The notes: generated from the sequence alone by a model not told the origin. 42,987 nucleotides of DNA from Alienimonas chondri (GCF_013036045.1 NZ_WTPX01000074.1:1-42987), one strand, 5' to 3'. Shown: positions 21,893 to 25,834, numbered from the stretch's first letter. A program made the numbers and translations.

Positions 21893-23254
21893 ATGTTCCC
21901 GACGGTCCCGCTTCGGCGCGCCGGGGCAGGACGCGGGCTCGTACCGGCGAAAAGGCGTCTCGGTCTCCGGGGCGCGGCAGCGGTTCCGAACGTCCGTCCC
22001 CTGTGCGCGAGGAGCGACACGCTGAATCGCACCCCTCTGCGGCGTCCCCCGAGCGGACGTTCCTGGTTCGGCCCGAGCACGCTGGTCACGGCGGCCTTGA
22101 TCGGCCCCGGAACGCTGACCACCTGTACGCGGGCCGGGATTCAACACGGCTACGATCTGCTCTGGGCCCTCGGTTTCGCCGGGCTGACGACCGTCGTGCT
22201 GCAGGAAATGGCGGCCCGACTGGGCTGGGCGACCGGCGCCGGGCTCGGCGAAGCGATTCGCCGCGAATTTCGGACCCGGCGGTCGCGGACGCTGTCGTTC
22301 GGGCTGGTGATCGCCGCGATTTTGGTCGGCAACATGGCGTACGAGAGCGGGAACCTGTCCGGGGCCGTGATCGGACTGGAGCTGCTCGTGGGGCCGACGC
22401 CGATCGGCGCTGTCGCGGTCGCGGCGGCGTGCGGCGGCCTTCTTTGGTGGGGCCGCTACCGCGGGCTGGAACGCGTTTTGATCGGGCTGGTGCTGCTGAT
22501 GAGCGGCTGCTTCCTGGCGACGGCGATCACGGTGCGGCCGGATCTGTCGGCCCTCGTCGCCGGATTCCGGCCGAAGGCGATGGAGCCGGAACACTTCCTG
22601 ACCGTCATGGGGCTGATCGGGACCACGGTCGTGCCGTACAACCTGTTTCTGCACGCGTCCACGATTTCCACCCGTTGGGGTCCCGAGGCGCCGATCCGCG
22701 ACGTCCGGCGGGAAACCGTCGTCGCCGTGCTGCTCGGCGTCTTGATCTCGGTCCTGATCGTCGTGACGTCCGCCGGCAGCCGCGCGCGACTGCCGAATCC
22801 GGGTGCGATCGACAACGTCTCGGATCTGGCGGTGCAGCTCGGACCGCTGGCCGGACGATTCGCGGAGGTTCTCATGGGGATCGGCTACCTCGCCGCCGGC
22901 GTCAGTTCGGCCCTGACGGCTCCCCTGGCGGCGGCGCTGGCGGCTCGGGGGTTGTTCGGCTGGGAGTCGAACGACCGGGATCGGCGGTTCGTGGGCGTTT
23001 GGGCGGTGATTTTGCTGGTCGGGGCCGCGGTGGGCCAAAGCGGCGTCAAGCTGGTGTCCGTCATCCTGTTCGCACAGGTCGCGAACGCCGTCATCCTGCC
23101 CCTGATCGGTGCGTATCTGCTGAGGCTCGCCAATTCCCGATCGACGATGGGCGGGGCGACCAACGGCTGGATCTCCAACGCGGCCGCCGCGGCCGCGCTG
23201 CTCGTCCTCGCGGCGATTTCGTCGGTCTCCCTCTGGAAGGTCCTGGGCGCGTAA
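21893..23254 (+). CDS. Nramp-fold transporter, YcsG-like, next to pxpABC
   Basis: This 453-residue membrane protein has the Nramp fold (about ten to eleven helices from residue 60 on). The usual metal ligands are absent: the TM1 DPGN motif reads G71-PGT74, and the TM6 MPHN motif reads V247-PYN250 (VVPYNLFLHAS). So all three side chains that bind Mn2+ or Fe2+ in MntH/Nramp (Asp, Asn, Met) are changed, and it is unlikely to be a normal manganese importer. The gene stands 149 bp before pxpABC. In B. subtilis the Nramp homologue ycsG also neighbours ycsF and kipI/kipA, as recalled. Transport of pyroglutamate or an ion that serves the pathway is a reasonable guess. The first 50 residues look non-conserved, so the true start may lie further in. 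Confidence 0.85.
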   Translation: MFPTVPLRRAGAGRGLVPAKRRLGLRGAAAVPNVRPLCARSDTLNRTPLRRPPSGRSWFGPSTLVTAALIGPGTLTTCTRAGIQHGYDLLWALGFAGLTTVVLQEMAARLGWATGAGLGEAIRREFRTRRSRTLSFGLVIAAILVGNMAYESGNLSGAVIGLELLVGPTPIGAVAVAAACGGLLWWGRYRGLERVLIGLVLLMSGCFLATAITVRPDLSALVAGFRPKAMEPEHFLTVMGLIGTTVVPYNLFLHASTISTRWGPEAPIRDVRRETVVAVLLGVLISVLIVVTSAGSRARLPNPGAIDNVSDLAVQLGPLAGRFAEVLMGIGYLAAGVSSALTAPLAAALAARGLFGWESNDRDRRFVGVWAVILLVGAAVGQSGVKLVSVILFAQVANAVILPLIGAYLLRLANSRSTMGGATNGWISNAAAAAALLVLAAISSVSLWKVLGA

Positions 23255-23403
23255 CGCCATGTCGGCCTGGCCCCATATCGGCCCGGCGCCTGCGGCCGCG
23301 GCCGCGGTCCGGCATCCGTCGCGATAGGGGCGCTGCGATTCCTTAAGCTCATCCGACGGGGGCGGGCGGATCGAGCGACGCGGCCCCCGGGGAAGACGCC
23401 TCA

Positions 23404-24186
23404 GTGAAGACCTCCGACAGCGAATCAACGGCCCCGGCGATGGACCTGAACGCGGACGTAGGCGAAACGACGGTCGAGCGGGACCGTCGACTGCTGCCCT
23501 ATTTGACGTCGTGCAACGTGTGCTGCGGTGCGCACGCCGGCAGTGCGGAGTTGATCGTGGCGACGATTCGGGAAGCAGTCCGATTGCGGGTCGCGGTCGG
23601 GGCCCACCCGTCATACCCGGACCGGCCGAATTTCGGTCGGCGGTCCGTTGCGCTGTCGGACGAACGGCTGGAGGCGGAGCTGCTGTTCCAGATCGCGACC
23701 GTCAAGTCGCTGGTCGAAGCGTTCGGGGCTCGACTGCGTCACGTGAAGCCGCACGGGGCCCTGTATCACGACGTGCGTTCGCCCGGCCCGCGGGCGGCGG
23801 CGCTGATCCGGGCGGTCAAGCGAATCGCCCCGGACGCCGCGATCGTCGGACAGGCGGGATCGGCGCTCTCCGAATCGGCGAGCCGGGAGGGATTGGCGTT
23901 CCGGCACGAGGCGTTCGCCGATCGACGCTACGCGGCGGCCGACGCGCTGGTTCCGCGGTCCGACCCGCGGGCGCTCGTCGAGACCGACGCCGACTTCCGC
24001 GAACAACTCCGCGGACTGCTGGATCGGCAGGTCCGCGACCTGTCCGGGGAGCGGCACGCGATCCCGGTCGATACGATCTGCCTGCACGGGGACTCGCCGC
24101 ACGCCGTTCGGTTCGCACAGATCGCCCGCAGCATGATCGACGGCCGGACGCCCGCGACCGCCGCCCGCGGCGGGGCGCCGTCATGA
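23404..24186 (+). CDS. pxpA: 5-oxoprolinase subunit A (LamB/YcsF family)
   Basis: PxpA is part of the ATP-dependent prokaryotic 5-oxoprolinase PxpABC, which opens 5-oxo-L-proline (pyroglutamate) to L-glutamate. Family signatures are clear: DLNADVGET, SCNVCCGAHAG, AVGAHPSYPDRPNFGRR, VKPHGALYHD and TICLHGDSPHA. The 260 residues match the usual length. Most PxpA proteins begin at the residue here numbered 13 (MDLNADVGE), but GGGGAAGA nine or so bases before GTG 23404 favours the longer form. Its stop overlaps the pxpB start by 4 nt (ATGA). It acts in the cytoplasm. Confidence 0.93.
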   Translation: MKTSDSESTAPAMDLNADVGETTVERDRRLLPYLTSCNVCCGAHAGSAELIVATIREAVRLRVAVGAHPSYPDRPNFGRRSVALSDERLEAELLFQIATVKSLVEAFGARLRHVKPHGALYHDVRSPGPRAAALIRAVKRIAPDAAIVGQAGSALSESASREGLAFRHEAFADRRYAAADALVPRSDPRALVETDADFREQLRGLLDRQVRDLSGERHAIPVDTICLHGDSPHAVRFAQIARSMIDGRTPATAARGGAPS

Positions 24187-24842
24187 CGATCCGGCGCCAC
24201 GAGCTTCGCCTCTTCGGCCGACCGATCGTCGCGACCGAGTATCACGGCGAGTTCCTGTTGCTGCGCCCGGCGTCGGCCGACGAGCGGCTGCCGGCGAGTT
24301 TCGGCGGAAAGTTGCTGTCCCGTCGGCCGGAGTTTTGCGACGAGGTGATCGCCACGGAGCGCGAAATCTGCCTGAAGCTCAACGACCGCTACGCGGAGCA
24401 GAGCCTGAACGCTTTGAAGGGCATTCCGATCGACGACGACGCGGGCGTCGCCCAGGGGCGGGCGGTCCGCCTGCCGGTCCGGTTCGGGGACTCGCCGGAC
24501 TGGGACCGCGTCTGCCGCCACACGGGTCTGACGAAGCAGCAGTATCAAACGGACCTGCTGCGGTGCCGGCTGTTGGTCGCCATGATCGGGTTCCTGCCCG
24601 GCTTCGTTTATTTCAACGGCCTGCCGGACCGCCTGCAGGTTCCCCGCAAGGAGACGCCGGACCGCCGCGCGGCGGCGAACTCGTTCGCCGTGGGCGGCGC
24701 TTACGCGGGTCTTTATTCGCTGGAAAGCCCGGCGGGCTGGAACGTGCTCGGCGAGGTGGGAACGAACGTGTTGCGTCTGGACCGGTTGCCCCCCGTCAGC
24801 CTGCAGCCGGGCGACGTCGTCACGCTGGCAGAACAGTCCTGA
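24183..24842 (+). CDS. pxpB: 5-oxoprolinase subunit B (KipI-like)
   Basis: PxpB, 219 residues, carries the carboxyltransferase-type C/D domain found in KipI. GFLPGFVYFNGLPDRL and VPRKETPD are the conserved centre, and the C-terminal SLESPAGWNVLG corresponds to the usual SPGGW block with one Gly replaced by Ala. The following GEVGTN diverges from the common GRTP. The start is the ATG at 24183, in ATGA overlap with pxpA; pxpC starts 13 bp after the stop. It works with PxpC as the ATP-using partner of PxpA. Confidence 0.9.
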   Translation: MTIRRHELRLFGRPIVATEYHGEFLLLRPASADERLPASFGGKLLSRRPEFCDEVIATEREICLKLNDRYAEQSLNALKGIPIDDDAGVAQGRAVRLPVRFGDSPDWDRVCRHTGLTKQQYQTDLLRCRLLVAMIGFLPGFVYFNGLPDRLQVPRKETPDRRAAANSFAVGGAYAGLYSLESPAGWNVLGEVGTNVLRLDRLPPVSLQPGDVVTLAEQS

Positions 24843-24855
24843 GGGGGAGCGAGCG

Positions 24856-25761
24856 GTGCCGACTGACACGCCGACAAAGATCAGCGGCGAAGCCGTCGGG
24901 CGGCTGTCCGTCGTCCGCGCCGGGATGCTGAGCCTGCTGCAGGACCGGGGGCGCCGGGGTCTGGCCTTTTACGCGATCCCGCCCTCCGGCCCGTTGGACC
25001 GCCGATCGGCCGAATTGGCCAGCGCGATCCTCGGGAACGACCCGGACGCCCCCGTGATCGAGTGTCATTTCACGCCCCCGACGCTGCGGTTCGAATCGGC
25101 CGCCGTGATCAGCCTGACGGGGGCGGAGATGGGCTGGACGCTCGACGGCCGACCGGCGCCGCGCGACGCCACGGTCGCCGTCGCGTCCGGCCAGACGCTG
25201 TCGGGCCGGCCCGCCGAAGACGGCTGCCGGGCGTACGTCGGCGTGCAGGGCTTCATTCAGACGAGTCAAACCTTCGGTTCGGCGTCGACCTACGCGCTCG
25301 GACGGTTCGGCGGCAACGGCGGCCGGCCGCTGGCGATCGGCGACGTCGTCCGCTGGCGCCCCCCGGAAGACGTCAGACCGCAGATGAGCCTCGTCGTATC
25401 GCACGCGTCCGCGGCGAACCTCGCGATCGCGTTGCGGCCCGGACCGGAATACGACTGGCTCACTCCGACCGCGCAGAACGATTTGAAGAACGGCGAGTTT
25501 CGGGTCAGCCCGCACAGCGACCGCATGGGGGCCCGGTTGGAGGGGCCGACGCTGACGCTGCGGGACTCCGCCCTGGCCGACAGCGTGCCCGTCCTGCCGG
25601 GCATGATTCAGCTGCCGCCGTCCGGCCGGCCGATCGTGCTTCTCCAGGACGGCCAGACCGCCGGGGGCTATCCGAGGATCGGTTACCTGCCGGCCGCGGA
25701 GCTCGACCGACTGGCGCAGATCCCGCCGCGGCGACCGTTTCGTTTCCGATTCTCCCCCTGA
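24856..25761 (+). CDS. pxpC: 5-oxoprolinase subunit C (KipA-like)
   Basis: PxpC, 301 residues, has the biotin-dependent carboxyltransferase-like A/B domain of KipA. LSLLQDRGRRG, IPPSGPLDRRSAELA, IECHFTPPTLRF, RVSPHSDRMGARLEG and VLLQDGQTAGGYPRIGYL are classic family blocks. GTG 24856 follows GAGGGGGAGCGA, a strong ribosome site. It is the last gene of the pxp transcript and runs convergent with operon B; a hairpin lies between. Confidence 0.93.
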   Translation: MPTDTPTKISGEAVGRLSVVRAGMLSLLQDRGRRGLAFYAIPPSGPLDRRSAELASAILGNDPDAPVIECHFTPPTLRFESAAVISLTGAEMGWTLDGRPAPRDATVAVASGQTLSGRPAEDGCRAYVGVQGFIQTSQTFGSASTYALGRFGGNGGRPLAIGDVVRWRPPEDVRPQMSLVVSHASAANLAIALRPGPEYDWLTPTAQNDLKNGEFRVSPHSDRMGARLEGPTLTLRDSALADSVPVLPGMIQLPPSGRPIVLLQDGQTAGGYPRIGYLPAAELDRLAQIPPRRPFRFRFSP

Positions 25762-25834
25762 GGCTGTCCTCTCCGGAACAGGGCGGGAGACCGTCGGTCG
25801 ACCCTGCGGACTCCCGCTCATTTGGACTGGCAGA

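Follow-up and report, generated by a model that had tools for sequence, protein, structure and literature searches.

The analysed stretch of the Alienimonas chondri genome (GCF_013036045.1, NZ_WTPX01000074.1:1-42987; one strand, 42,987 nucleotides, hereafter the window) encodes an Nramp-family protein whose helix breaks in transmembrane segments 1 and 6 (TM1 and TM6) read GPGT and VPYN. As a preliminary description of the window had stated, this transporter gene lies directly ahead of the 5-oxoprolinase genes pxpA, pxpB and pxpC, all on the same strand (Table 1). PxpA, PxpB and PxpC are present, intact and in order, and most of the NCBIfam equivalog cut-offs are not reached. Translation of pxpA most likely starts at the ATG at 23443, as in a congener, which would leave a gap of ~188 bp to the transporter gene; the start codon of pxpB at 24183 overlaps the pxpA stop. 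The locus is surrounded by ordinary planctomycete genes, for example those for DUF1501, PSCyt/PSD1 and sulfatases. No sigma-70-type promoter was detected at the locus by a scan whose sigma-70-type model is uninformative for a planctomycete host.

The transporter matches PF01566 with 281 bits (cut-off 29.8) over profile positions 2-356 of 357. Its AlphaFold2 model, built from 48 homologues, reaches a predicted local distance difference test score (pLDDT) of 91 and a predicted template-modelling score of 0.90. The closest solved structures are DraNramp (6d91; Z 49.4, root-mean-square deviation 2.3 over 387 residues) and then EleNRMT (Z 45.4), followed by APC-superfamily amino-acid transporters (Z about 30). 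Alignment to DraNramp and EleNRMT sets in at about residue 58 (near position 22064), and the model is weak before that point; the first ~45-60 codons of the open reading frame may therefore be non-coding, and the true start is uncertain. With respect to the NCBI families, the protein stays below the cut-offs of the MntH and metal-Nramp models (161 versus 430 bits for NF001923, 107.5 versus 272.5 for TIGR01197) and exceeds that of the equivalog NF037982, 'Nramp family divalent metal transporter' (84.7 versus 50). NF037982 also accepts the proteins of loci L037, L038 and L147, all devoid of the metal ligands, and product names derived from it are probably misleading for such proteins. The A. chondri genome encodes four PF01566 proteins, none of the DPGN type. 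A scan of viral_contigs with the clade alignment revealed no relatives, and a phage scan with the clade gave only two weak partial matches.

Table 1. Features of the transporter-pxpABC locus and of comparison loci (positions in the window, or in the locus named)
Feature	Position	Strand	Basis
Nramp-family transporter GPGT/VPYN (putative 5-oxoproline/cyclic-amide importer)	21893..23254	+	Pfam PF01566, E 1.8e-83; AlphaFold2 pLDDT 91; Nramp/LeuT fold
TM1 break IGPGT (residues 70-74), replacing xDPGN	22100..22114	+	DraNramp/EleNRMT alignment; helix break, model residues 26-29
TM6 break TTVVPYN (residues 244-250), replacing ATVMPHN	22622..22642	+	DraNramp alignment; helix break, model residues 202-205
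pxpABC cassette	23295..25787	+	blastn, 86% identical to the cassette of congener G092
pxpA, 5-oxoprolinase subunit (LamB/YcsF)	23443..24186	+	PF03746, E 6.8e-71; NCBIfam PxpA models; longest open reading frame from GTG 23404
pxpB, 5-oxoprolinase subunit (CT_C_D)	24183..24842	+	PF02682, E 1.1e-30; TIGR00370 below its cut-off
pxpC, 5-oxoprolinase subunit (CT_A_B)	24856..25761	+	PF02626, E 2.4e-76
DUF2891 upstream of transporter, examples	L046 4914-6023; L048 4687-5793; L010 2748-3905		seen at about 50 more loci
Haloarchaeal transporter-HyuA/HyuB loci	L037 5189-8826; L041 5180-9089; L044 5180-8799		CopG-type regulator precedes

HMMER alignment with DraNramp and EleNRMT places IGPGT on MDPGN in TM1 and TTVVPYN on ATVMPHV in TM6, confirming the earlier claim that all three canonical metal side chains are changed. 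At the metal positions of DraNramp, D56 is replaced by G71, N59 by T74 and M230 by V247; further exchanges are A227 to T244, H232 to Y249, E134 to N154 and E124 to L144, and Q378 and Q89 are retained. The protein belongs to a clade whose members are ~38-54% identical to it; the 107 compared, which come from Bacteroidota, Pseudomonadota, Planctomycetota and Halobacteria, share the motif pair without exception. The letters G/T/V/T/Y/N at D56/N59/M230/A227/H232/E134 occur in 107/107 aligned members; Q378 and Q89 are likewise invariant, D131 is E or Q, and E124 is mostly hydrophobic or G. Of these members, 80 were fetched by a genome scan with the motif itself as the pattern and cannot prove its conservation. 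The evidence for it is taken from profile- and protein-based searches made independently of the motif, namely those covering three Planctomycetia, plasmid-borne copies, 20 Pseudomonadales genomes and a Flavobacteriaceae family scan.

With the canonical Slc11/MntH proteins (DraNramp, EcoDMT) the transporter shares the fold, Q378 and Q89, but identity is 27%, and D56, N59, M230, H232, E134 and E124 are all absent from it. EleNRMT (7qia), a Mg2+ transporter, has the same fold, a Thr at A227 and Q378 in common with the A. chondri protein (25% identity), but keeps D56 and E134; the binding site thus differs from that of NRMT proteins. In agreement, the NRMT signature, in which the TM1 Asp is kept, N59 becomes Gly and M230 becomes Ala, is not found (GPGT/VPYN versus DAGG/APWM in EleNRMT).

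Loss of the metal ligands was rejected as a specific signal. A scan of 31 Flavobacteriaceae genomes yielded 50 PF01566 proteins that match over most of the family, and 0/50 retain D56/N59/M230; by their TM1/TM6 letters they are of the GPGT/VPYN, GTGS, GPGS or GxSH type. Ligand-less clades whose TM1 reads GTGS or GxSH are common in this bacterial family (L226-L258). As reported previously, PF01566 comprises Slc11, outgroup and NRMT proteins of <30% identity and other specificities, with many outgroup clades lacking the ligands (PMC9606685), and the protein therefore need not derive from a metal transporter. What distinguishes the GPGT/VPYN proteins is their genomic context, since 15 of the 17 in Flavobacteriaceae are adjacent to pxpA, versus 0 of the 33 other PF01566 proteins (Fisher p 6e-11). 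The correlation between motif change and pxp linkage, raised as a question at the outset, is thus present, and it is the complete GPGT+VPYN signature alone that goes with pxp. A same-genome paralogue (L002) carries GPGT in TM1, yet a different TM6.

The 80 best loci of the motif scan, some of which overlap by a few bases in their coordinates and were reclassified by hand, have pxpA adjacent in 71 cases and 1.9 kb away in one; HyuA/HyuB take this place in one locus, and neither is in view in seven. Pseudomonadales present a different arrangement: the transporter is nearly always unlinked, with one copy only adjacent to pxpA, and it is the co-occurrence that is striking. pxpA is present in 20/21 genomes with the transporter versus 110/223 without it (p 3.5e-5), and in 19/19 when the two seed genomes are omitted (p 3.5e-6), although related genomes are non-independent evidence and both p-values are optimistic. 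Planctomycetia genomes often encode both a DPGN-type protein and PxpA; compared by eye, the two genes are neighbours in none of about two dozen such genomes.

In three haloarchaeal megaplasmids (Haloferax, Halocatena and Haloarcula), the transporter gene is directly followed by genes for HyuA and HyuB, and one Bacteroidia copy is likewise located beside HyuA/HyuB. These enzymes constitute an oxoprolinase/hydantoinase family that is non-homologous to PxpABC and acts on the same substrate class. The transporter is hence kept while the enzyme is exchanged, and of all the genomic clues this one points most strongly to the substrate as the common factor. One of the haloarchaeal loci additionally contains an Asp/Glu-racemase-type gene. 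In the literature searched, no paper combines 'hydantoinase' with 'Nramp'.

Another recurrent partner is DUF2891 (PF11199), encoded immediately upstream of the transporter in 47/80 loci (nine of them, with small overlaps, assigned by hand) and elsewhere in the locus in four more; it also precedes two stand-alone planctomycete copies. It is not found in the A. chondri genome and is thus not essential. In Bacteroidota it has a lipobox-like, lipoprotein-type leader; the fold of DUF2891 is helical, and the family is probably extracytoplasmic. The sole solved homologue is CJ0554 of Campylobacter jejuni, and a structure search returned nothing but CJ0554 above background, pointing to no enzyme class. 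The genes cj0552-4 encode DUF969, DUF979 and DUF2891, and a mutant cannot use 5-oxoproline, in an experiment that its authors call preliminary (PMC12795558). The putative C. jejuni 5-oxoproline transporter DUF969/DUF979 therefore has the DUF2891 partner and the proposed substrate in common with the GPGT/VPYN protein, but is reported as a different protein pair (PMC12795558). The same accessory protein consequently accompanies two different candidate 5-oxoproline transporters.

On the basis of these linkages and by analogy, we consider it likely that the protein is a secondary transporter that takes up 5-oxoproline or a similar cyclic amide and feeds PxpABC. The earlier proposal of an Nramp-derived transporter for a new substrate, possibly pyroglutamate, holds in so far as the motif-pxp linkage makes pyroglutamate the best candidate. 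Descent from a metal transporter is not needed in view of the ligand-less outgroup clades, and for the Nramp family the idea is not new, as PxpT illustrates (PMC13274462). According to the proposed mechanism, the LeuT/Nramp-fold protein would bind a small cyclic amide instead of a metal in a central site at the TM1 and TM6 breaks. This site would be shaped by G71, T74, T244, V247, Y249 and N154, together with Q395, the most likely ligand being 5-oxoproline. Backbone groups freed by the helix breaks and the side chains of T74, T244, Y249, N154 and Q395 could hold its lactam and carboxylate, and the site, with no negatively charged residue at position 56, would suit an anion. Once imported into the cytoplasm, 5-oxoproline would be ring-opened by PxpABC with ATP to yield glutamate.

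Several points weigh against this model. What the protein carries, in which direction and with which coupling ion, if any, is our inference, and the support for the substrate consists of genomic linkage and co-occurrence, in part among the related, non-independent genomes mentioned above. Many transporter copies stand alone; seven such genomes have pxpA elsewhere (G148, G149, G150, G152, G154, G079 and G094), and three transporter-bearing genomes lack it (G151, G153 and G106). Moreover, hydantoins could instead be the substrates of the enzymes encoded beside the haloarchaeal copies, and overexpression of Bacillus subtilis YcsG (MntG) raised (PMC10448178), and deletion of mumT lowered (PMC5050338), cellular Mn, MumT having been described as a Mn2+ importer encoded in a urea operon.

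Some of these observations would also suit import of another cyclic amide or small amino-acid derivative, such as hydantoins or pyroglutamyl peptides, with 5-oxoproline at most one of several substrates. The HyuA/HyuB neighbours and the racemase-type gene are in line with this option, as are the many stand-alone Pseudomonadales copies with their varied neighbours, and the leader and helical fold of DUF2891 might mean that a precursor is first processed outside the cell. We nevertheless regard it as unlikely, because no other partner is nearly as common as PxpABC, whose known substrate is 5-oxoproline (PMC13274462).

The published Mn phenotypes lead to a further alternative, in which the protein imports Mn2+ or Mg2+ as a cofactor for nitrogen metabolism, the role that has been advanced for YcsG/MntG and MumT. 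Its membership in PF01566 and the NF037982 score fit this role, and EcoDMT with the exchanges N54G, M235A and A232T still carried Mn2+ (PMC8806188). In the GPGT/VPYN clade, however, the remaining carboxylate D56 is absent as well, in 107/107 members, along with H232, E134 and E124, whereas even the Mg2+ transporter EleNRMT retains D56 and E134. Metal supply would furthermore fail to account for the association with DUF2891 and with two oxoprolinases of separate families, and both Mn studies deal with another clade, which makes metal import improbable here.

This other clade is defined by GPGF in TM1 and GGYI in TM6. It comprises four pxpA-adjacent PF01566 proteins in Pseudomonadales, and the same type is pxpA-adjacent on plasmids of Shinella, Klebsiella, Lactiplantibacillus and Deinococcus. 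Five members are 18-20% identical to the A. chondri transporter and 44-67% identical among themselves. Two GPGF proteins, compared by sequence with the PDB, had no match there. By structural alignment, YcsG (PDB 9a52) is 17-19% identical to the transporter model, and PxpT (Cg1142) from Corynebacterium glutamicum shares 50% identity with YcsG (PMC13274462); YcsG and PxpT are therefore very probably located in or near the GPGF/GGYI clade. Orthology of the transporter with YcsG/PxpT was rejected on these identities: of the parallel drawn earlier to ycsG, the gene order stands, but 17-19% identity contrasts with ~38-54% within the GPGT/VPYN clade. PxpT was shown in 2026 to be required for growth of C. 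glutamicum on 5-oxoproline (PMC13274462), and given the separate clades such genetics cannot be transferred by orthology to GPGT/VPYN proteins. PxpT/YcsG are likewise Nramp-family secondary transporters encoded with pxpABC, but differ in their TM1/TM6 letters and in the usual extra partner, which is D-glutamate cyclase versus DUF2891 or none in the GPGT/VPYN clade.

MumT, a member of the GPGF/GGYI clade, is likewise an Nramp-family protein beside PxpA-type and PxpBC-type genes; it is 18% identical to the transporter, from which its published role sets it apart, and all three metal side chains are missing from it (G, F and G instead). An Acinetobacter baumannii locus (L204 5661-13166, NZ_CP064203.1) encodes LysR, a GPGF Nramp-like protein, PxpA, D-glutamate cyclase, a PxpBC fusion and biotin carboxylase, and its gene order agrees with the published mum operon (PMC5050338). 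By its gene content, this operon would seem to serve 5-oxoproline or D-glutamate. A Klebsiella plasmid operon (L208 and others) consists of genes for GntR, a GPGF Nramp-like protein, PxpA, a hydro-lyase, PxpBC and biotin carboxylase; the GPGF transporter is present in 93 Klebsiella plasmid records.

The direction of transport cannot be read from a sequence, and the protein might export 5-oxoproline, relieving its accumulation instead of importing it as food. The transporter is missing from most Planctomycetia genomes that carry pxpA, so PxpABC also works alone, perhaps as a repair enzyme. Export is nonetheless very improbable, as growth on external 5-oxoproline depends on PxpT and on cj0552-4, the comparable systems with genetics (PMC13274462, PMC12795558).

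The history of the gene pair offers a further perspective. The congener G092 has no GPGT transporter beside its pxpABC cassette and no GPGT match at all. A second pxpA copy of 94.7% DNA identity is found in the A. chondri genome on contig C93:1-794 (L200), cut by the contig end and with other flanking genes; it is either a true duplicate or assembly redundancy. In the phylogenetic tree, the transporter nests with Bacteroidota proteins (54% identity to the best; 100/90 support for a set of five rows) on a long branch of its own, and its nearest Bacteroidota relatives are mostly not pxpA-adjacent. The origin of GPGT amounts to two changes in this tree, one being possible, and GPGF lies on a very long branch. 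In the PxpA tree, which lacks 13 intended sequences and has unresolved deep nodes, PxpA of A. chondri pairs with that of the congener. These relationships suggest that a Bacteroidota-type transporter gene likely joined a pxpABC cassette already in the genus; alternatively, it was possibly lost in the congener. If the pair was brought together anew, this would argue for a functional tie. That the cassette merely moved beside an unrelated transporter gene, as its defined boundaries and differing flanks in the congener and on C93 might suggest by indicating varied locations, is hardly credible, for dozens of distant genomes have these two side by side as well.

The GPGT/VPYN clade seems to be unreported. 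In a broader sense, the chances appear evenly balanced that at least two distant ligand-less PF01566 clades, GPGF/GGYI and GPGT/VPYN, have both come to take up 5-oxoproline or cyclic amides in partnership with ring-opening enzymes, the second pairing with PxpABC or the non-homologous HyuAB and with the probably extracytoplasmic DUF2891. Databases label such proteins as divalent metal transporters, NF037982 accepting even a ligand-less protein, and for pxp-linked Nramp-family proteins two physiology papers assign Mn2+ import and one 5-oxoproline uptake; the binding-site letters make this dispute directly testable. If our model is true, MumT and MntG would by the same reasoning be importers of 5-oxoproline and not of Mn2+. 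The widespread family DUF2891 gains a concrete candidate pathway, and at stake is whether the Nramp scaffold serves an organic substrate.

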